Positions 20,811 to 37,993 of a DNA stretch of 47,747 bases are shown piece by piece (positions within the stretch are counted from its first letter, which is position 1; each line of letters opens with the position of its first letter). This DNA is from Okeania sp. SIO2B3 (GTDB lineage Bacteria; Cyanobacteriota; Cyanobacteriia; Cyanobacteriales; Microcoleaceae), in assembly GCF_010672525.1 (NCBI RefSeq), contig NZ_JAAHGH010000052.1, forward strand, positions 1-47,747. Direction: 5' to 3'. The translations under genes were made by a program, and so were the position numbers. The notes below the pieces were generated by a model that worked only from the letters and a program-made list of their open reading frames with translations, ran no database searches and was not told the origin of the DNA.

Positions 20811-21869
20811 TTATTTGCTGCCTCCTAATTTGTTTTTTGCTAATGCTAAGAGACCTTCAGCGTTGAGAGTGTGGGCATTAGGGAGAACTTGGAAACCTTT
20901 AGACTGAAGATGTCTATCAACCATTGGTAAGCAAGCACCACCGCCAACAGCAAACATACAATCAGCAGAATCAATTTGATCTTTGAGGTCGGACAAAGTA
21001 GTTCTCAAATTTTCATTTGCCCAAACTTGTAGACAATTACGGTAAATTTCAGCAAAGCTAAAAGGTTGATATTTTCCATATTGGAAAGACTTAGATTCAA
21101 TACCTTCACGGATTATGAATGAGTCACCTTCACGACCGTTTTTGGCTTTCATCATGTCGGAATGTTTGGCGATCGCTGTGTATAAATCTCTTACACCAAA
21201 ATTCATCACATTCCTGTCGATCTGCTTTCCAAACTGGTACACGGTCGAGATGCTCGTGCCATACCCCAAATCCAAAAGTAATAGCTTATGGTTTTGGCTA
21301 ACACGACCATCGGCTAGCAAGCTAGCCAGCGTTCCCATTCCCTCATTAACGACTAACATTTTGTTGACAGTTATGTTGTAATTTCTACTGCCCAACTCTA
21401 CTGTGTGACAACCTTTTAGTGCTTTGACCAGGTCTTCTCTGAAACTCTTGGCATGATGGATTGATATACAGAGATTCACTTCTAAATTATCGGATTCAAT
21501 ACCCATACAGCCAATAGCACCTAAAAACAGTTGCAGCGCGTAATCAACCTTGCCTCTAGCTAACTGAGCAACTTCTAATTTCCCTTGAGGACTAGCACTG
21601 TAAGCAGGTGAACCTATCAACCATTGTTGATTCCCTAACTCTCCATAACGAGGGCCGGAAACATATACCACAGAGCATCCTTCGTTGGCAACTATGTTAC
21701 TTTCGGTTTCAGCTTTGGGGTTATAGATATAGCTAGGTATCTTAGTACTATGACCCATATCGGAAAAGGCTTTGAGGAATCCATTGCCACTGTCAATACC
21801 TATATTTAGATAGGCTGTTCTCATTTGTTCTAGCTTAGTATTATTTGCGCTTTTGGTCGTTGCTATCAT
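20811..21869 (-). CDS. parM: ParM/StbA-like plasmid segregation actin (352 aa)
   Basis: Actin-fold ATPase. The phosphate-1 motif GIDSGNGFLK lies near residue 24, phosphate-2 LLLDLGYGTS near 198, and the adenosine motif FAVGGGACLPMV near 315. This matches ParM/Alp-type proteins (actin-like N-terminal domain family) that form filaments pushing plasmid copies apart. An AAGGA RBS precedes the ATG. A small RHH-like gene follows directly, giving an actin-adaptor pair. The upstream 160 bases contain repeated TTTGTTC/TTTGTTCT strings and could include the centromere, but I cannot prove this. Confidence 0.8.
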   Translation of the reverse strand: MIATTKSANNTKLEQMRTAYLNIGIDSGNGFLKAFSDMGHSTKIPSYIYNPKAETESNIVANEGCSVVYVSGPRYGELGNQQWLIGSPAYSASPQGKLEVAQLARGKVDYALQLFLGAIGCMGIESDNLEVNLCISIHHAKSFREDLVKALKGCHTVELGSRNYNITVNKMLVVNEGMGTLASLLADGRVSQNHKLLLLDLGYGTSISTVYQFGKQIDRNVMNFGVRDLYTAIAKHSDMMKAKNGREGDSFIIREGIESKSFQYGKYQPFSFAEIYRNCLQVWANENLRTTLSDLKDQIDSADCMFAVGGGACLPMVDRHLQSKGFQVLPNAHTLNAEGLLALAKNKLGGSK

Positions 21870-27903: not shown

Positions 27904-28093
27904 TATTATTCCGACGCAAAACAGATAACATCTGACGCAAAAATTCTTGGTCTGTCATTAAAAGTTGCTCCCACCACTTTTTTTGTGCTTGGAGTACAGC
28001 TTTTTCAAGGTTTAATAATTTTGCTGATTTACGGCCTGAGCCACGGTAGTTTTGTATTCTCAGGTCTAGTTCAAGTTGAACGTATTCTGGCAT
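27830..28093 (-). CDS. Basic helical protein, 87 aa
   Basis: ATG at 28093, 19 bases after a leader hairpin. Helical and strongly basic (RGSGRKSAKLLNLEKAVLQ, WWEQLLMTDQEFLRQML), so nucleic-acid binding is possible. An intact version of the decayed copy at 27465-27650. Not recognised as a known family. Confidence 0.55.
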   Translation of the reverse strand: MPEYVQLELDLRIQNYRGSGRKSAKLLNLEKAVLQAQKKWWEQLLMTDQEFLRQMLSVLRRNNNESKKYEQLSKDLSKNPAKDRNRN

Positions 28094-28111
28094 TTTTGGC
28101 GTTTCAAGGAA

Positions 28112-28131
28112 GCAGGGTGGTTAAACCCTGC
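28112..28131 (-). promoter_or_regulatory. Leader hairpin GCAGGGT...ACCCTGC (copy 2)
   Basis: Same stem as at 26221-26240, here 18 bases before the ATG of the 28093 gene and again followed by TTCCTT. The loops differ while the stem and the following sequence are kept. Confidence 0.5.
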
Positions 28132-28210
28132 AAGTAGAGAATTAAAAAGTAATAGTTATCAATCAATTAGATTTATGGACGCTTCACAAGATCGCTATAG
28201 TCACCTCCTT

Positions 28211-28384
28211 GTTATGGGACATTTGGGGCTACCTATTAGAAGTCCCGCTTATGGCTTCTCAACTAAGTAGAAAAGCCTAATTTTTCTGGATTTTTCCGAG
28301 CATTTAACTGTTTAAGCAAATTAGGTACTAGCTGTGGTTTCCGGCATTCGCGCTTTCTCCTACGTTCCCTTTCTTTGCTTATGT
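28211..28384. repeat. 174-bp direct repeat upstream of RHH gene, copy 1
   Basis: Matches 29044-29217 at constant offset 833 with only four base differences by eye. It lies immediately upstream of the operator-like repeats of the first RHH gene. On the minus strand it contains a short basic reading frame (SKERERRRKRECRKP to a stop) kept in both copies. Confidence 0.9.
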
Positions 28385-28390
28385 CGCTAT

Positions 28391-28467
28391 AGTAGCAAAA
28401 CATATATATAATGTCAACATAGTAGGAAAACGTTTTTTCGGAGGATGATATATCATGGTAGGAAAAC
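28391..28467 (+). promoter_or_regulatory. AGTAGnAAAAC iterons, putative operator of RHH gene 1
   Basis: AGTAGCAAAAC (28391), AGTAGGAAAAC (28421) and GGTAGGAAAAC (28457) are repeated in the same orientation just before the RHH start. RHH regulators of the CopG/Omega type bind short direct repeats in their own promoters. GGAGG boxes lie at 28439 and 28468. Confidence 0.55.
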
Positions 28468-28958
28468 AGGAGGCCAAACACAGTAATGCCGAAAGTAGCA
28501 AACAAATATCATGGAGTAGCAAAGAAAAAAATTTCTATTGCCCTGACACCAATGGTTTTGGATTACATAGAGAAATATCAGACGGAGATGGGAGGGAAGA
28601 TAAGCCGTTCAGAAGCACTAGAGCAGATACTGAGGGGACAGATAGAGACAGAATCTTCTGGGACATTTTCCCAAGAGGAGAATCTGACCAAGCAGCGTTG
28701 CTTAGGTATATTAAAAAATTAGTAGGCCGTCTGGAACTTCTTGAGGCAGAAAGTATTTCTCTCGCAGAGGAACAATCTCGCTTCATAAACGATCACCGAG
28801 ACAGGTTATTGAAACGGCTAGGAGAAAATGAAGAGTTCGCCCGCAGGAGTGAAGAAACACGCCAAAAATTAGCTCAAGGCAGAAGTGCATTAAGGCAAGA
28901 GATAGTAGAGCTTACGCGGGTTCTGGGTGCATCAGAATTAGAATCAACAACTGAATAA
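28455..28958 (+). CDS. -1 frame ORF carrying conserved coiled-coil extension (copy 1)
   Basis: This frame is open from 28455 to the TAA at 28958. Only its end looks like a conserved protein: from about 28684 (SDQAALLRYIKKLVGRLELL) on, it matches copy 2 (FDQQTILQFLKKLVRRLEIL) and both finish GASELExTTE. The upstream part is low-complexity and probably a shadow of the RHH frame. It is best read as the extension joined to the RHH domain by -1 frameshifting; an independent start (ATG 28455 or TTG 28698) is the alternative. Confidence 0.6.
   Translation: MVGKQEAKHSNAESSKQISWSSKEKNFYCPDTNGFGLHREISDGDGREDKPFRSTRADTEGTDRDRIFWDIFPRGESDQAALLRYIKKLVGRLELLEAESISLAEEQSRFINDHRDRLLKRLGENEEFARRSEETRQKLAQGRSALRQEIVELTRVLGASELESTTE
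28486..28722 (+). CDS. Ribbon-helix-helix regulator 1 (78 aa), with predicted -1 frameshift extension
   Basis: Frame-0 product. It has a typical RHH domain: basic N-terminus, strand KKISIALT, helix PMVLDYIEKYQTE and helix ISRSEALEQILRGQ. A GGAGG box lies about 13 bases before the ATG. The frame ends TTA AAA AAT TAG. A_AAA_AAT is a -1 slippery heptamer placed directly before the stop, and the -1 frame continues for 79 codons with a coiled coil. The predicted long form has 157 residues. The paralogue at 29323 shares domain, heptamer and extension. A plasmid copy-number or partition regulator is likely by family. Confidence 0.8.
   Translation: MPKVANKYHGVAKKKISIALTPMVLDYIEKYQTEMGGKISRSEALEQILRGQIETESSGTFSQEENLTKQRCLGILKN
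28713..28722 (+). promoter_or_regulatory. Slippery heptamer A_AAA_AAT followed by TAG (copy 1)
   Basis: Codons read TTA AAA AAT TAG in frame 0. Tandem -1 slippage re-pairs AAA with AAA and the AAT tRNA with AAA, then reads TTA GTA in the new frame. The stop in the next codon would pause the ribosome and favour slipping. Confidence 0.65.
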
Positions 28959-28963
28959 CATAA

Positions 28964-28998
28964 AGTCCGGCGATCGCGTTTTAGATTGTCGGGCTTTT
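28964..28998 (+). terminator. Rho-independent terminator with HIP1 in stem (copy 1 of 3)
   Basis: AGTCCGGCGATC pairs with GATTGTCGGGCT (three G-U pairs) around GCGTTTTA, followed by TTTT. Placed 6 bases after the RHH-1 extension stop. The same module follows at 29741 and 30214. Confidence 0.8.
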
Positions 28999-29043
28999 GT
29001 TGTGTTGGAGTTAAATAATAGCTTCACCTCCTTTGCTATTGGT

Positions 29044-29217
29044 GTTATGGGACATTTGGGGCTACCTATTAGCAGTCCCGCTGATGGCTTCTCAACTAAG
29101 TAGAAAAGCCTAATTTTTCTGGATTTTTCCGAGCGTTTAACTGTTTAAGCAAATTAGGTACTAGCTGTGGTTTCCGGCATTCGCGCTTTCTCCTACGTTC
29201 TCTTTCTTTGCTTATGT
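29044..29217. repeat. 174-bp direct repeat upstream of RHH gene, copy 2
   Basis: About 98% identical to 28211-28384. With the terminator repeat it frames each RHH gene in nearly identical flanks, although the genes inside have diverged strongly. The gap 28959-29322 contains no gene other than this repeat, the terminator and operator-like strings. Confidence 0.9.
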
Positions 29218-29224
29218 TGACATA

Positions 29225-29291
29225 TTACTACTATTTTAGATAAAATGTTAATATAGTAGTAAGATATTTTTTTTATTTGGTAGTAAAATAC
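29225..29291 (+). promoter_or_regulatory. TAGTAGTAA-type repeats, putative operator of RHH gene 2
   Basis: TTACTACTATTTTA (inverted), ATAGTAGTAAGA and GGTAGTAAAATAC occur before RHH gene 2. They resemble, but are not identical to, the AGTAGnAAAAC repeats of copy 1 (AGTAGTAA instead), as expected if each regulator has its own operator. Confidence 0.45.
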
Positions 29292-29735
29292 ATGAAAGAA
29301 CAACTAGGGGACTCAAATAAAAATGGCTCACAAAACGAATCACAAGAGATATGGGGAGAGGAAAATCAAAACTTCAATAGCATTGACTATGAAAGCCATG
29401 AATTATGTGGACGAGGTAAGAGAAGAGAAACAACTCAGCCGAAGCGAATATTTGGAACAAATGGTAAGGATAGACATGGAATCAACTTCAGAGGGCAAGC
29501 CTTTGACCAGCAAACAATACTGCAATTCCTTAAAAAATTAGTTCGCCGCCTGGAAATCTTAGAAGAAAAACATACTAAGTATGCAGCCGAACACCGAAGC
29601 AGGCTAATAGCGACATTAAAAGAGAATGAAGATTTCGCCCTCGAAGTTCAGCCAGAGATTGATGCCTTAAAAGAGGACATAGCTGAACTACTGGGGGTCT
29701 TGGGTGCATCAGAATTAGAGCCAACAACTGAATAA
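29292..29735 (+). CDS. -1 frame ORF carrying conserved coiled-coil extension (copy 2)
   Basis: Open from TTG 29277/ATG 29292 to TAA 29735. From about 29505 it encodes FDQQTILQFLKKLVRRLEIL, then a coiled coil and GASELEPTTE, homologous to copy 1 in the same relative frame. In this copy no ATG, GTG or TTG exists near the start of the conserved part, which argues against internal initiation and for frameshifting from the RHH frame. Confidence 0.6.
   Translation: MKEQLGDSNKNGSQNESQEIWGEENQNFNSIDYESHELCGRGKRRETTQPKRIFGTNGKDRHGINFRGQAFDQQTILQFLKKLVRRLEILEEKHTKYAAEHRSRLIATLKENEDFALEVQPEIDALKEDIAELLGVLGASELEPTTE
29323..29541 (+). CDS. Ribbon-helix-helix regulator 2 (72 aa), with predicted -1 frameshift extension
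   Basis: Paralogue of the 28486 product: KIKTSIALTMKAMNYVDEV and LSRSEYLEQMVRIDME form the RHH domain. AGGGGA lies 12 bases before the ATG. The frame also ends TTA AAA AAT TAG. A -1 shift at A_AAA_AAT would add 65 residues to give a 137-residue product. The core differs at about half its positions from copy 1, so the conserved heptamer is not explained by recent duplication alone. Confidence 0.8.
   Translation: MAHKTNHKRYGERKIKTSIALTMKAMNYVDEVREEKQLSRSEYLEQMVRIDMESTSEGKPLTSKQYCNSLKN
29532..29541 (+). promoter_or_regulatory. Slippery heptamer A_AAA_AAT followed by TAG (copy 2)
   Basis: Identical to copy 1 in sequence, frame and distance to the stop: TTA AAA AAT TAG, with the -1 frame continuing TTA GTT CGC. 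Confidence 0.65.
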
Positions 29736-29740
29736 CATAA

Positions 29741-29775
29741 AGTCCGGCGATCGCGTTTTAGATTGTCGGGCTTTT
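29741..29775 (+). terminator. Rho-independent terminator (copy 2 of 3)
   Basis: Same 12-bp stem, loop and TTTT as at 28964, again 6 bases after the extension stop. The following TTGTTGTGTTGGAGT is also shared. Confidence 0.8.
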
Positions 29776-29815
29776 GTTGTGTTGGAGTAAATTTATTTTT
29801 AGATTAGGAGCAGAA

Positions 29816-30214
29816 ATGGACGACAAAACAGATAAATTCAAGAAAACCAGCCAAGATAACATCCCGGAGATAACAGTAGAAAAAGCTTGCAACCTGCTTA
29901 TGGCTTGCCCTCAAATTTTCCTAACAAGTGCTAAAATGCCTCCCCTTAAAGTGTGGAGACGATGCCTGCTTTTAAGTGACATACTCAGAAATATCATTGT
30001 TTTACATGGCCGTAACCTCTTATCCTCTAAGCCTGGCAGCCTTATGGAAAAGTATGTACTCCCAAAAAATTTGCAGATAGAAGCAAGTGATATTAATTGG
30101 CTGAATTCTGTTTTAAATGAAAATCCAGTATACATCTTTCGGGCAGGAGTGTCTTTATTAGGAGATGATTCTTTTTGGTGGAAGCCCATCGAAGAGGAAA
30201 ATATTGATGAGTAA
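29816..30214 (+). CDS. Unknown protein, 132 aa
   Basis: I prefer the ATG at 29816 because an AGGAG box lies 6 bases before it; a longer frame from 29774 would run into the terminator region. The product is soluble and helical (ACNLLMACPQIFLTSAKM, then WRRCLLLSDILRNI). Not recognised. Its 3' end has terminator copy 3, so it belongs to the same family of gene modules as the RHH genes. Confidence 0.55.
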   Translation: MDDKTDKFKKTSQDNIPEITVEKACNLLMACPQIFLTSAKMPPLKVWRRCLLLSDILRNIIVLHGRNLLSSKPGSLMEKYVLPKNLQIEASDINWLNSVLNENPVYIFRAGVSLLGDDSFWWKPIEEENIDE

Positions 30215-31760: not shown

Positions 31761-32186
31761 ATGAATACGTCCTTGATAGACACAACAAGCAAAACCATTA
31801 AATGTTTAACTCTCAAGCAGCCTTGGGCTTGGGCTATTTTTAATTTAGGCAAAGACATTGAAAACAGAATTTGGAGAACTGCCTACCGAGGCTTGCTGTA
31901 TATCCACGCAGGGAAACAATTTGACGACCTTGGTAAGCTTTGGATTCTACAGAGATTTAATGCTGTGATTCCTGACAATTTAGAAACTGGCTGCATTCTT
32001 GGAAGCGTTGAGATTACTGACATCAGTCGTGATTCATTCGGAAGCCGGTGGTCAATGTCAGATCAATGGCACTGGAAATTGCGAAATCCCTTGCTATTAA
32101 ATAATCCAATTGAAACGAAGGGGCATCTAAGTTTGTGGGACTTTAAAGTTCCAGAAGATTTATTAATTTGCCGTAAAGAAGGTTGA
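31761..32186 (+). CDS. ASCH-domain protein, 141 aa
   Basis: The start of the domain is characteristic of ASCH proteins: KCLTLKQPWAWAIFNLGKDI, ENRIWRTAYRGLLYIHAGK, and later GCILGSVEITDI and the closing GHLSLWDF. ASCH domains are beta-barrel RNA- or nucleotide-binding modules related to PUA and common in phages and mobile elements. Its role here is unknown; some family members act on modified nucleosides. Starts 26 bases after the previous stop. Confidence 0.8.
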   Translation: MNTSLIDTTSKTIKCLTLKQPWAWAIFNLGKDIENRIWRTAYRGLLYIHAGKQFDDLGKLWILQRFNAVIPDNLETGCILGSVEITDISRDSFGSRWSMSDQWHWKLRNPLLLNNPIETKGHLSLWDFKVPEDLLICRKEG

Positions 32187-34341: not shown

Positions 34342-34372
34342 GCCCACTATAACACAGCACTATCTAGTGGGC
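34342..34372. promoter_or_regulatory. Inverted-repeat operator candidate in front of the replication gene
   Basis: GCCCACTA (34342-34349) and TAGTGGGC (34365-34372) form a perfect 8-bp inverted repeat with a 15-base spacer in the divergent promoter region between the HTH gene and the CyRepA1-like gene. Confidence 0.65.
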
Positions 34373-34468
34373 TGTCTAGCTGTCACAAAACATCTTACAA
34401 ACAGGCTACAACAGTCAGGTCAATTCAGAGAAGAAGCGACAAGAAAAAATATAAAACAAAGAACTATT

Positions 34469-37400
34469 ATGTTTACTCACTACGACTTAGAAGATGGGTA
34501 CATCCGCCCAGAAGGTGAAAATTTCCGCCTACAGCCCCCAACAAAAAATCAACATAATTACAGTAAAATTTACCATAACAATCGTCCTGGTCAGTGGATA
34601 AGATACAACAGTTTTAGCACCCCTTGCCCAGTCTGTTCTGGCGAACGTCGTGACTGCCGAAGTAAAGACGAGCTATACTTTTGCCGTACCGACAATCCCT
34701 CAAAAGATTTCAAGTACAAGGGAACAGACGAGATAGGCTTTGGCATGTATGTGAGCCTCAGTGATCGCCTACCGCATCCCCCATCACAAGACATTAATTA
34801 TAGTCAAAAGCACCAAAAATACTCTCCCATTTCTGATATCGATCGGACCAAAGGGTTCAAAAAAGTAGTCAAACAATTAGGACTATCAACTCCTCATAGG
34901 AAACAGCTAGAGAAACGAGGTCTAACACCAGAACTAATAGAGAAATATCAATTCAAGTCAGTTGATAATGCTACAAAATTAATTAATCTTGTAGCCAGTG
35001 GAATGCCATTAAAATATGGCAGAAAATTCAACGCAAAAGATAGCTCTATCTTCATACCAGTCTGGCAAGGTAATCAGATATTAGGAGCACAGTTACGTCC
35101 TAAAAATACGTCTGAAATGAAATACTACTGGCTCAAAGCTGGTCAAGCAACTTCACATTTAGAGTCAGGAGAAATTCCTTTAGCGTGCATCATTCCTGAA
35201 GAAATAAATCAAGTTGGTGTAGGGTTATGTGAGTCAGTTGGCTTCAAACCTATCATTGCTGCGGAGAAATTAAAAAGAGTAATGATAGGAGCTGCTGGCG
35301 GTAATTTTACAGGCGGTCGTAAACAACTATTACAACTACTAAATAGCAATCATCCAGATAAGTCAATCCCCATAATACTATACCCTGATGCTGGTGCGAA
35401 TGAAAACAGAAATGTTTTGTCTCAATATACAAACTTAAAGCATTTTTTAGGACAAAATGGATACACTTTAGAAGTTGCTTGGTGGGAACAGTGGCAGAAG
35501 GAAAGAGACCTAGATATAGACGATTATTTAGTAAGTGGTGGCGATGAAATAAAGATTATTAACTGGAAGCAATATACACGGAATCAGAGGATAGCAAAAG
35601 GTCTTTATAAACGATCAAGAAGGTATAAGCCTAACATTGAAATTAATGAGCGTTTTTTGCCCAATAATATTATTAGCAAATACCTAAAACCAAAATCAAT
35701 TATTGCTGTTAATTCAGCAATGGGAACAGGTAAAACTGAAGCATTAAAATCAGTGTTAGAAGAGCACTGCAAAGACCATGGGCTACTAATGCTTGGCACT
35801 AGAAATGCACTGCTGATGCAATCATGTGGACGCTTAAATATTTATCATTTAAGAGACGATAATGCCAGCTTGTTTATGAATGACAGATTGAGCGAAATTG
35901 CGAACTGTTTTGATTCCCTGCCAAAATGGGATGACGAAAATTTAAAAGACAGAGTTATTGTCATTGATGAAATTAGTAGTGCTATACCACATTTACTAGC
36001 AGGTGCAACTTGCAGAAGACATCGTTCTCTTATACAAAAAAAATTAGAAATAACACTCAAGTATGCTCATGCGATTATTTTACTAGACGCAAACCTTAAA
36101 GACCGAGAAGTTCAGTACATACAAAGAATTTCAGAATTTAATAATGTCATCAAAATCAAGAATAATTACAGCCCCGTCAGTAGAAGTGTTGAGTTCATCT
36201 GTGGTAGTGAAACTATCAACGACACCCTCGACAATAATGTACCAAGACTAACTAAAAACAACAACGAATATCAACCATTGATATCAGAATTGGCAGCCAA
36301 TAAAAATCCCTATGTTGTTGCAATTGACGGACTAAAAAAAGCACAACAATTAGAAGCTCAATTAATCAACTTAGGAGTAAATCCTGATGACATCTTGAGG
36401 ATAGATTCTACTACTATAGATGGAGCAGAAGCTAAATCATTTATGCGTAGTCCTAACAGCTACATAGGACAAATACGCCCACGTATAATCATTTATACTC
36501 CCACAATAGATGCGGGGGTTAGTATCGACATAAAAGACTACTTTACTGATATTTACGCGTTCAGGTTTCACTTAGGGACAGATGAATTTATGCAAATGTT
36601 AGGACGCGTTCGCGACCCTAAATGCAAGTGGCATATTTACAGCAGGGAATTTGTCATAAATGATGCAGATGGTTTTAGTTCACCATTCAAAAAGAGAGTA
36701 GAAAAAACTTTAACTAATGCAATTACTGAAGATGCTCATATGAATCTCAGTATAGATAAAAAACTAAATAGATTAATTCCCAAGTTTAAAGAGTTATTGA
36801 CTAGCGCTCAAGACAAACATTTCCAAGCTTTTTGTGAACTAAAATCAGCACGCAATTATGAGAAATTAAACTTGAGAGAAACACTCAGGGATAGATTAAT
36901 TGTAGATGGTCACAACGTTACTGATATTTATTTAGAATCTGACAAAACCTTAAATCAACAGTGGAAAAAGACCAATAGAGAAGTCATTGCAGATAATGTT
37001 GAAAGATTCTTAAAGTCTGAAAATATTTCTCTTGGAGATGCTGATGACATTTTATCTAAATGGAGTTCTTCCTATGAAGATAGATTGAAAGCTGAAAAAT
37101 CTATCCTCACAAATCGCACTTTGCCTGGCATTAGACATACCTCATTGTGGGGGGAAGAACTGCTGACCAAAATACTCTATACAGACAAGCAGCTAATATC
37201 ACGCCTTGAATTAAGGTGGCATTTTCAAAACATGGATAAAAGTTCAACAATTCAGAAGAATTATTGGTTAAAAAAAATAAAAAATTCCGAAGTTTATTTG
37301 CCAGATTGGCGATCGCCTCACTTCGTGGCCTCTAAATTATTAGATACTGGACTAAGAAAAATTTTAGAAAATCCCGACCGCGAATGGACAGGAGACGACA

Positions 37401-37993
37401 AAGAGTTGGAGGCCATTGTTAAATCGGCCAATCATTGGCGGCGACGAAACTACCTTCCTAAAAGAGGCAAAGCATCAACTATCCAGTATATAAATCGCGT
37501 ACTTGAAAAAATCGGCTACACGCTTATCGTGTCGCGACGAAATGGCAAACGATATTACAAGCTTTTTGACATCTATCTTGCAATCTCTATCAACGGAAAA
37601 CTTGAGGCATTGTCTCAGCCACTTATGCAGATTCTTGGTCAAAAACTAGACTCTAAAGCTGAACACTGCCAAACCCAAGTATGGGGAGATTTAGAGGCAA
37701 TGACACCTAGCGATAATAATATATATAAATCGGAGGAGGTGGTAGAGGCTAAAACCTCTTCACCTGGAACGCTAGAAAAGGAAAAATCAACAGGTGTGAA
37801 AATAGGAGATTTAGTTGACGTTACAACTCCTGATAAAGAGTATGGGATGTGCGAAGTCTTAGAATCTAATGGAAATACTCTTAAGGTTAAATGGGGGATT
37901 GTAAACTCCAAAATACTTAACTTTAGTATTGATTTAGTGACAAAAATTTGGAGATATGGACCTGATGGGCTAAAACTAATTTGGTCTGTGTAG
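34469..37993 (+). CDS. CyRepA1-type plasmid replication protein (1174 aa)
   Basis: Large initiator of cyanobacterial plasmids. Order: zinc finger C53-C56-C63-C72 (CPVCSG...FCR) near the N-terminus; a DUF3854/Toprim-like domain at about 248-304 (VGLCESVGFKPIIAA, then ILYPDAGAN); helicase domain with Walker A SAMGTGKTEAL (about 414-422) and Walker B RVIVIDEIS (about 494-502); SF2-like C-terminal motor with ARGinine-containing QMLGRVRDPK (about 715); a long helical C-terminus. Start at ATG 34469; an upstream in-frame GTG at 34367 overlaps the operator. It indicates a plasmid or integrated plasmid. Replication role follows from the family. Confidence 0.85.
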   Translation: MFTHYDLEDGYIRPEGENFRLQPPTKNQHNYSKIYHNNRPGQWIRYNSFSTPCPVCSGERRDCRSKDELYFCRTDNPSKDFKYKGTDEIGFGMYVSLSDRLPHPPSQDINYSQKHQKYSPISDIDRTKGFKKVVKQLGLSTPHRKQLEKRGLTPELIEKYQFKSVDNATKLINLVASGMPLKYGRKFNAKDSSIFIPVWQGNQILGAQLRPKNTSEMKYYWLKAGQATSHLESGEIPLACIIPEEINQVGVGLCESVGFKPIIAAEKLKRVMIGAAGGNFTGGRKQLLQLLNSNHPDKSIPIILYPDAGANENRNVLSQYTNLKHFLGQNGYTLEVAWWEQWQKERDLDIDDYLVSGGDEIKIINWKQYTRNQRIAKGLYKRSRRYKPNIEINERFLPNNIISKYLKPKSIIAVNSAMGTGKTEALKSVLEEHCKDHGLLMLGTRNALLMQSCGRLNIYHLRDDNASLFMNDRLSEIANCFDSLPKWDDENLKDRVIVIDEISSAIPHLLAGATCRRHRSLIQKKLEITLKYAHAIILLDANLKDREVQYIQRISEFNNVIKIKNNYSPVSRSVEFICGSETINDTLDNNVPRLTKNNNEYQPLISELAANKNPYVVAIDGLKKAQQLEAQLINLGVNPDDILRIDSTTIDGAEAKSFMRSPNSYIGQIRPRIIIYTPTIDAGVSIDIKDYFTDIYAFRFHLGTDEFMQMLGRVRDPKCKWHIYSREFVINDADGFSSPFKKRVEKTLTNAITEDAHMNLSIDKKLNRLIPKFKELLTSAQDKHFQAFCELKSARNYEKLNLRETLRDRLIVDGHNVTDIYLESDKTLNQQWKKTNREVIADNVERFLKSENISLGDADDILSKWSSSYEDRLKAEKSILTNRTLPGIRHTSLWGEELLTKILYTDKQLISRLELRWHFQNMDKSSTIQKNYWLKKIKNSEVYLPDWRSPHFVASKLLDTGLRKILENPDREWTGDDKELEAIVKSANHWRRRNYLPKRGKASTIQYINRVLEKIGYTLIVSRRNGKRYYKLFDIYLAISINGKLEALSQPLMQILGQKLDSKAEHCQTQVWGDLEAMTPSDNNIYKSEEVVEAKTSSPGTLEKEKSTGVKIGDLVDVTTPDKEYGMCEVLESNGNTLKVKWGIVNSKILNFSIDLVTKIWRYGPDGLKLIWSV

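Follow-up and report, generated by a model that had tools for sequence, protein, structure and literature searches.

In insertion sequences (IS) of the IS1 and IS3 families, -1 frameshifting on sites of the A_AAA_AAx type yields a short DNA-binding protein, OrfA, and a fused protein, OrfAB; comparable heptamers serve lambda gpG/gpGT, which uses G_GGA_AAx, and E. coli dnaX, which uses A_AAA_AAG. Overlapping frames are known from hok/mok, in which translation from an upstream start in another frame runs across a functional open reading frame (ORF), and long same-strand dual coding in bacteria has usually been argued from single genes. Here we describe two tandem genes in a stretch of 47,747 nucleotides from the cyanobacterium Okeania sp. 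SIO2B3 (contig NZ_JAAHGH010000052.1; the whole stretch is hereafter the window), each of which encodes a ribbon-helix-helix (RHH) protein ending at a slippery heptamer, followed in the -1 frame by a predicted helical extension, the coil. Judging from comparison with homologues, we consider it probable that each gene encodes an RHH repressor under its own control and that a single mRNA yields up to three products. According to the excerpts of the respective papers, frameshifting occurs in the IS1, IS3, IS5 and IS630 families (PMC5009743), TrcR (all0854) of Anabaena sp. PCC 7120 is an RHH autorepressor whose site overlaps its own -10 box (PMC10272220), and Arc_1 and Arc_2 are RHH repressors of 53-72 amino acids from cyanobacterial CRISPR-associated transposons (CASTs; PMC9938897).

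The resemblance of the window genes to OrfA-OrfAB lies in a short DNA-binding product and a -1 fused product; unlike OrfAB, however, the joined proteins here show no transposase among the Pfam matches listed for the members of our profiles A1 and A3, on which ground an IS OrfA/OrfAB identity was rejected, and the first ORF lies entirely within a second open frame that has an upstream start. The lambda and dnaX heptamers G_GGA_AAx and A_AAA_AAG recur in place in this family, but in a regulator with nested frames instead of tail or polymerase genes. As in hok/mok, an upstream start in another frame spans a functional ORF, whereas here no toxin family was found in the ten neighbouring window ORFs scanned, the second frame reaches a conserved coil and a slippery site joins the two frames. 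The role of a type II antitoxin in a toxin-antitoxin pair was likewise rejected, with each gene having its own terminator-like hairpin and no toxin among the scanned neighbours. TrcR shares with the window genes the character of a cyanobacterial RHH regulator, with autorepression proposed here, whereas the excerpt of PMC10272220, our sole basis of comparison, describes neither a frameshift within trcR nor a second frame; Arc_1 and Arc_2, also compared by their description in an excerpt (PMC9938897), are similarly small RHH repressors on mobile elements, and no CAST gene was named among the matches of 42 neighbour ORFs from ten loci, which is a weak test. Literature searches, with most subscription journals outside their scope, returned no description of RHH genes with such a frameshift or nested frame; CopG is unmentioned in the excerpts of PMC3711429, PMC5009743 and PMC10885494, as is the word "ribbon" in those of PMC3711429 and PMC10885494. 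Slippery -1 sites and overlapping frames are thus known kinds; their combination, with selection on openness only, is new as far as we have seen.

The initial annotation, made from the sequence of the window alone, had noted that both genes end with TTA AAA AAT TAG (TTAAAAAATTAG), in which A_AAA_AAT directly precedes the stop, that homologous RHH domains in frame 0 are followed by homologous sequence in the -1 frame, and that the joined products would have 157 and 137 residues. All of this was reproduced: the 12-mer occurs exactly twice in the window (28711-28722 and 29530-29541), each time closing an RHH ORF; the -1 frames continue to the ends given in Table 1; and the joined products have the predicted lengths and are 45% identical to each other. 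Gene 1 matches the RHH profile at E 2e-23, a profile built here with gene 1 in its seed, and its coil extension is 74% identical to its counterpart in Okeania sp. SIO1I7 (G004). The assignment to the RHH (CopG/Arc) DNA-binding class is by sequence profile: PF01402 (RHH_1) matches 4 of 7 A1 members (best E 1.5e-4, limit 1) and 7 of 12 A3 members (best E 2.6e-8, limit 0.01), and the CopG chains 1b01/2cpg match A3 at E 5e-5; the joined product of window gene 1 does not itself reach RHH_1 in the A1 Pfam scan. Because the two genes are tandem paralogues with flanks 96% (upstream) and 85% (downstream) identical, tandem copies of one module by this measure, the shared 12-mer could be simple inheritance. 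A one-mismatch search of the window for it gave 3 matches, with 1.6 expected. The repeated 12-mer alone is little proof, and the homologues decide.

Profile searches covered 388 genomes of the order (E 1e-3), 386 of the phylum (1e-4) and 217 of one other family (1e-6), with matches in 189, 77 and 151 genomes, respectively, many of them to RHH proteins of other kinds; the genes counted below are a hand-picked part of the short open frames among the matches listed. ORFs longer than 135 amino acids, those with a profile E above 1e-4 and those without a stop in the stretch were left out before counting, and removal of redundancy at 85% identity or more reduced 161 genes to 144, divided between a discovery set (set 1), which contains genes used to build the profiles, and a second set (set 2). 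A heptamer was scored when A_AAA_AAY, G_GGG_GAR or G_GGA_AAN lay within 15 codons of the RHH stop, a rule that excludes A_AAA_AAG and G_GGG_AAR. By this rule, 104 of the 144 non-redundant short RHH ORFs carry a heptamer, which synonymous resampling retains in a mean of 20 (maximum 30) of the 104; the earlier impression that the site is conserved and looks selected is thereby borne out. The homologue search proposed in the initial annotation found the site at the end of the RHH frame as A_AAA_AAC or A_AAA_AAT and, in 96 further genes, two related heptamer types in the same place, most genes of the wider family having, unexpectedly, YTG GGG GAR or YTG GGA AAA there. The 104 heptamers divide into GGGGGAA 54, GGGAAAA 34, AAAAAAC 5, GGGGGAG 4, AAAAAAT 3, GGGAAAG 3 and GGGAAAC 1. 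Chance repetition or paralogy alone was rejected through these homologues.

The -1 extensions of the wider family are rich in Glu, Leu, Gln and Lys and helix-like, and they reach at least 30 residues in 54 of 55 heptamer genes of set 1 (the remaining one has 28) and in all 49 of set 2. Among genes outside the rule, such extensions occur in 7 of 34 (set 1) and 6 of 6 (set 2); these six carry the variants G_GGG_AAR, G_GAA_AAG, G_GCA_AAG or A_AAA_AAG, and two of the seven in set 1 (L055 and L113) likewise have variant sites. The classical A_AAA_AAG marks a group of its own (L113, L241 and L186) in which the -1 extension starts with (N/H)KKAL; the coil frame of L113 and L186 is closed immediately before the site, which would leave the coil reachable only via a slip or a later start. 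Four members lie outside the window's order but within its class (L082, L087, L098 and L120), and the window pair is, on these comparisons, one case of a family across that cyanobacterial class. Of ten named plasmid RHH genes, eight lack a heptamer and have extensions of 2-19 residues; in the other two, which have one, the extensions measure 37 and 34 residues. Searches of plasmids by tblastn gave 11 and 7 records for two queries and none for a third; plasmid blastn of window positions 28001-30200 and phage tblastn of one family member gave no match, and the search of viral contigs with A1 gave 114 pattern matches and 0 relatives. In many genomes the same RHH domain also heads larger single-frame proteins, of about 230-570 residues and ending in variants of ...NKWRNRTFSR (e.g. 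G000:C228:150407-150742).

Decay or mis-sequencing, by which RHH-coil fusions would have been broken by an indel, has in its favour that the window belongs to a draft assembly (249 contigs) and that one homologue is fused; we regard it as having a negligible chance of being correct, for the same break, the same heptamer classes and the same open frames recur in about 100 non-redundant genes of many genera, by which a pseudogene or a sequencing error is refuted. The fused homologue belongs to the A-run subfamily of the window's own genome and its relatives, in which six other, unfused genes carry A_AAA_AAC (L007, L008 and L015), A_AAA_AAT (L009) or CTA AAA AAC TAG (L003/L050 and L051), and a further one, L016, has the same site with its RHH part cut off by the contig end. 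In this paralogue, L017/L070, one extra A makes a run of seven and places RHH and coil in a single frame, and the -1 frame of the fusion contains stops; the extra A of L017 may conceivably be a homopolymer error of that contig, which is from a metagenome-assembled genome. The initial annotation had taken a single-frame fusion elsewhere as a sign against frameshifting; one such case was found, and we read it as support for a working fusion and not as refutation. Modelled as a monomer by AlphaFold2 (9-row alignment, predicted TM score 0.39), the natural fusion is predicted to have one helix at residues 64-146, with a mean pLDDT (predicted local distance difference test) per ten residues of 75-97 and the fusion junction (about residue 72) inside it, and helices at 21-34 and 38-51 of low pLDDT, without an N-terminal strand. 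A Foldseek search with this model gave top matches that are largely RHH chains, although at a best E of 0.42 and with no match at E <= 0.001. Among genome contigs, profile A1 gave 69 pattern matches and 1 locus, in Okeania sp. SIO1I7.

Slippage of the polymerase instead of the ribosome, at the A6, G5 or GGGAAAA run, would also make the joined protein. A-runs are known polymerase slippage sites, and a single A in just such a run sets the natural fusion L017 apart; however, A6 and G5 are short for polymerase slippage, GGGAAAA is not a homopolymer, and the frame-dependent placement of the site and the RNA structure downstream point to the ribosome, and we consider transcriptional slippage very improbable. 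The codons at the site argue in the same direction. Of 101 sites near the RHH end defined by their amino acids, xG[EK], 96 are slip sites, the other five having been set aside by inspection as other Gly residues. In all 96, the base before the Gly codon is G; the Gly codon is GGG in 57 of 57 cases before GAR, and GGA in 36 and GGG in 3 of 39 cases before AAR, where GGT and GGC, together 27% of the Gly codons elsewhere, do not occur. The choice of Gly codon thus follows the next codon in the way required for P-site re-pairing on GGG. The heptamer lies in the zero frame inside the overlap with the -1 ORF, and RNA folding peaks just after it: over 55 nucleotides (nt) from 5 nt past the heptamer, the mean z is -0.96, with 31% of values below -1.5 (n=59), compared with -0.82 for a window that overlaps this one and values between 0.00 and -0.33 for the five remaining offsets, a group mean that defines no single structure. 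In the window genes, the 60 nt from 5 nt past the slip site fold at -11.7 kcal/mol (gene 1) and -7.8 kcal/mol (gene 2).

Alternatively, two overlapping genes might suffice, RHH and the product of the coil frame being made from two starts and the heptamer being a by-product of double coding (LGE with GG, LGK with GK, LKN with KK). The open coil frame with its own ATG/GTG in 97 of the 104 heptamer genes and the strong depletion of coil-frame stops, both described below, fit such an arrangement. We nevertheless hold it to be quite unlikely: the residues at the site vary by class while the slipperiness stays (A_AAA_AAY, G_GGA_AAN, G_GGG_GAR); the pair GGA|GAR, which would place Arg in the coil frame, is found in 0 of 57 GAR sites, though Lys does occur at AAR sites; and the folding peak and the natural fusion also speak against it. 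Further evidence comes from genes in which the coil frame is closed inside RHH although the coil is kept. These are 6 of the 104 (L024, L034, L138, L141, L149 and L255), together with two plasmid genes, pGLO7428.03 of Gloeocapsa sp. PCC 7428 (site CTG GGA AAG, G_GGA_AAG; 3 coil-frame stops inside RHH) and pMIC7113.03 of Allocoleopsis franciscana PCC 7113 (A_AAA_AAG; 7 stops). L034, L138, L141 and L149, which tell against overlapping genes only, have no coil-frame ATG, GTG or TTG near the junction, the first lying at +48, +19, +34 and +37 codons; a possible coil start just past the site is present in L024 (TTG at +5) and L255 (ATG at +1). In the closed-frame genes, a slip is the likeliest route to the coil, and frameshifting and dual coding are, in the genes compared, separable. 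Production of a short RHH protein and an RHH-coil protein by programmed -1 frameshifting is strongly supported by the sequence comparison, because of the heptamers, the Gly codon covariation, the downstream folding peak, the coils kept with a closed frame and the natural fusion.

The initial annotation had seen the -1 frame similarity begin slightly before the heptamer and had offered an overlapping gene as the alternative to a frameshift. The frame does begin before the heptamer, but much further upstream than was thought, with an ATG 31 nt before each RHH start (Table 1), and while the slip and the overlap are each supported, they prove not to exclude one another: the data say both. Inside RHH, the 104 heptamer genes have 13 coil-frame stops, against 298 expected (minimum 256) from synonymous resampling, and 98 of them have none (50/55 in set 1 and 48/49 in set 2; 5.5 expected); among genes outside the heptamer rule, no stop is found in 2/34 of set 1 and 5/6 of set 2. 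The third frame is near expectation, with 418 stops against 391. In RHH genes without an extension, coil-frame stops exceed expectation (244 against 177), which shows that RHH genes in general do not share the depletion. The class labelled "FS-like", to which these last comparisons of observed and expected stops refer, required a -1 overlap of 10 codons, and the heptamer-only selection of the 144-gene test is the cleaner. In 103 genes, the coil-frame stop frequency falls from 7.8% at codons -12 to -5 to 0.8% at -5 to 0 and 0.0-0.3% inside RHH, where the third frame has 4.5-12.6%; this sharp edge of openness coincides with the upstream coil-frame start. An upstream coil-frame ATG or GTG, most commonly 13 nt before the RHH ATG, is present in 97/104 heptamer genes (49/55 in set 1 and 48/49 in set 2), and in 4/34 and 5/6 of the genes outside the rule. 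Of 52 set 1 genes, 24 have a Shine-Dalgarno word of at least 4 bases before the upstream start and 7 have one before the RHH start; gene 1 of the window has GGAGG 10 nt before its upstream ATG, and a TTG at 29277 is in frame with the gene 2 coil-frame ORF.

The second frame is therefore open beyond chance and has its own start, yet its amino acids appear free. We call the RHH region read in the coil frame X. Over the overlap, the RHH frame has the usual pattern of substitutions (0.17, 0.11 and 0.36 at codon positions 1, 2 and 3 in 15 pairs), and 2890 synonymous RHH differences, taken from 279 gene pairs with shared ancestry, create a coil-frame stop in 3 cases against 181 expected, while leaving X residues unchanged in 107 against 104 expected. 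Amino-acid selection in the coil frame over the overlap was not detected, only openness being selected, and an amino-acid-coding X frame was rejected on the count of unchanged X residues. Gly, Ser, Arg and Glu are abundant in X, which, by composition, is probably disordered. By this pattern, the coil frame must stay readable while its sequence is free: X is a translated passenger leading to the coil, and X-coil is a likely third product. The gene would then probably be both dual-coding and frameshifting, with the products RHH, RHH-coil and X-coil. It is possible instead, though we think it unlikely, that RHH and RHH-coil alone are functional and that the open coil frame is a tolerated or expression-related side effect of the upstream start, X-coil having no role. 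The lack of constraint on X residues, the heptamer genes and plasmid genes with closed X, and the stops in the -1 frame of the natural fusion would all be expected in that case; selection, however, removes X stops from the entire RHH gene as far as the coil, which would be unneeded if X-coil were useless.

Taking the gene as both dual-coding and frameshifting, we propose the following scheme. Ribosomes starting at the RHH ATG would make a short RHH repressor that ends at the heptamer or a few codons past it, and a fraction of them would slip -1 there, the P-site tRNA re-pairing one base back, and make RHH-coil, in which RHH is joined to one long helix. Starting at the upstream coil-frame ATG or GTG, others would make X-coil, which lacks the DNA-binding domain and has the out-of-frame RHH region as an unconstrained leader before the same coil. 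RHH may bind repeats at its own promoter; through its coil, RHH-coil might bridge repeated operators or form oligomers on them, and X-coil could act as a poison by pairing with RHH-coil. The product mixture would then be set by the frameshift rate and the choice of start. Sequence statistics establish that the genes are RHH genes, that their heptamers are conserved, that the -1 frame is open and has a start, and that repeats lie upstream; we infer that the products are made, in what ratio, and what they do. We lean, with somewhat less confidence than for the window genes themselves, towards a cyanobacteria-wide class in which an RHH gene is nested in a frame kept open but sequence-free, and in which two starts and one slip site give a repressor, an oligomerising RHH-coil and a competitor, X-coil, devoid of DNA binding.

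Several points weigh against this interpretation. All of the evidence is comparative. The heptamer list was fixed only after set 1 had been seen, and set 2 was ranked by the joined-member profile A3, which enriches it for the type and leaves only six genes without a heptamer; the genes are related and not independent, such that P values would be overstated, a problem that set 2 reduces but does not remove. G_GGG_GAR is an imperfect X_XXY_YYZ site, at which A-site re-pairing needs a middle-base G-U pair, or else P-site slippage acts alone. The freedom of the X amino acids also fits X as a by-product, and X-coil is not universal, given the closed coil frame in 6 of 104 genes and both named plasmid cases. 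In the window itself, the upstream ATG of gene 2 lacks a clear Shine-Dalgarno sequence, and the folding after its slip site is modest.

With about a hundred diverse genes giving the same sharp signal, in which openness is selected and amino acids are free, the purpose of a sequence-free translated frame becomes directly testable. At a single homologous position, the family further offers many natural -1 slippery sites, which fall into three main types and should help in finding out which heptamers are effective in cyanobacteria. Genes of this kind can be overlooked or truncated by gene prediction: the PLSDB table, which is incomplete, lists none for the plasmid copy of Gloeocapsa sp. PCC 7428, and in Allocoleopsis PCC 7113 the annotation covers just the RHH part.

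The features of the two window genes and their flanks are collected in Table 1. Direct repeats of at least 13 nt (one mismatch allowed) lie upstream of 50% of heptamer genes, compared with 1% of mononucleotide shuffles, which suggests autorepression as the simplest reading, with the RHH autorepressor TrcR of Anabaena as a published precedent (PMC10272220, excerpt). The three TAGTAGNAAAAC-type copies span the gene 1 leader, and the third overlaps the upstream ATG. The promoter-like sites of the window are consensus matches only (4 found, 3.1 expected in shuffles), and terminator-like hairpins number 2, with 1.2 expected.

Table 1. Positions of the paired RHH genes, their second frames and candidate regulatory features in the window.
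Feature	Position	Strand	Remarks
RHH ORF 1, frame 0	28486-28722	+	78 aa (amino acids), C-terminal ILKN-stop
Slippery heptamer A_AAA_AAT, gene 1	28713-28719	+	directly 5' of TAG; AAT/AAC kept in homologues
Gene 1 -1 frame coil extension, IKKLVGRLELLE...	28710-28958	+	homologous helical sequence
Gene 1 full coil-frame ORF (predicted X-coil, 167 aa)	28455-28958	+	ATG 31 nt 5' of RHH ATG
RHH ORF 2, frame 0	29323-29541	+	72 aa, C-terminal SLKN-stop
Slippery heptamer A_AAA_AAT, gene 2	29532-29538	+	
Gene 2 -1 frame coil extension, LKKLVRRLEILE...	29529-29735	+	
Gene 2 coil-frame ORF	29292-29735	+	upstream ATG likewise 31 nt 5' of RHH ATG
Three direct repeats, operator-like, TAGTAGNAAAAC-type	28388-28401, 28418-28431, 28454-28467	+	86-100% alike
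Sigma-70-like promoter of gene 2, TTGACA-18-TAAAAT	29217-29246	+	11/12 consensus matches
Inverted repeat, candidate operator	arms 29222-29238, 29249-29265	+	88%; overlaps gene 2 promoter-like site
Terminator-like hairpin after gene 1	28962-28997	+	
Identical terminator-like hairpin after gene 2	29739-29774	+	
185-nt upstream flank	28210-28394	+	second copy 29043-29227, 96%

Elsewhere in the window, an actin-like ParM-type protein (20811-21869, - strand; ALP_N, E 1.5e-13) and a 1208-residue protein with an origin-binding/helicase-like match (34367-37993, + strand; E 6e-7) are encoded, which suggests that the 47.7-kb contig is a plasmid or a similar element; no terminal overlap of the contig was found. 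Downstream of the pair, an ORF at 31761-32186 (+ strand) weakly matches the ASCH domain (E 1e-3, slightly short of the curated cut-off). Among the 42 neighbour ORFs from ten loci, no gene family is common to most neighbourhoods; three integrases, two IS110-like transposases and weak MADS-like matches were seen. The in-frame RHH proteins L181 and L184, of 185 and 189 residues and without a heptamer, on plasmids of Calothrix sp. NIES-4105 and Gloeothece citriformis PCC 7424, adjoin TnsA-like/Tn7-like genes, recalling the CAST-associated Arc repressors (PMC9938897, excerpt). On one chromosome (G018:C1), four stretches of 4.4-6.2 kb around a heptamer-type RHH gene (L161-L164) are 91-97% identical, and in L161 this gene adjoins an IS110-like transposase and a phage-type integrase. 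Finally, G373:C81, G379:C186 and G361:C10 each have two identical 8-kb stretches with an RHH gene, 15-20 kb apart, which by their sequence may reflect either recent duplication or the assembly of a circular element.

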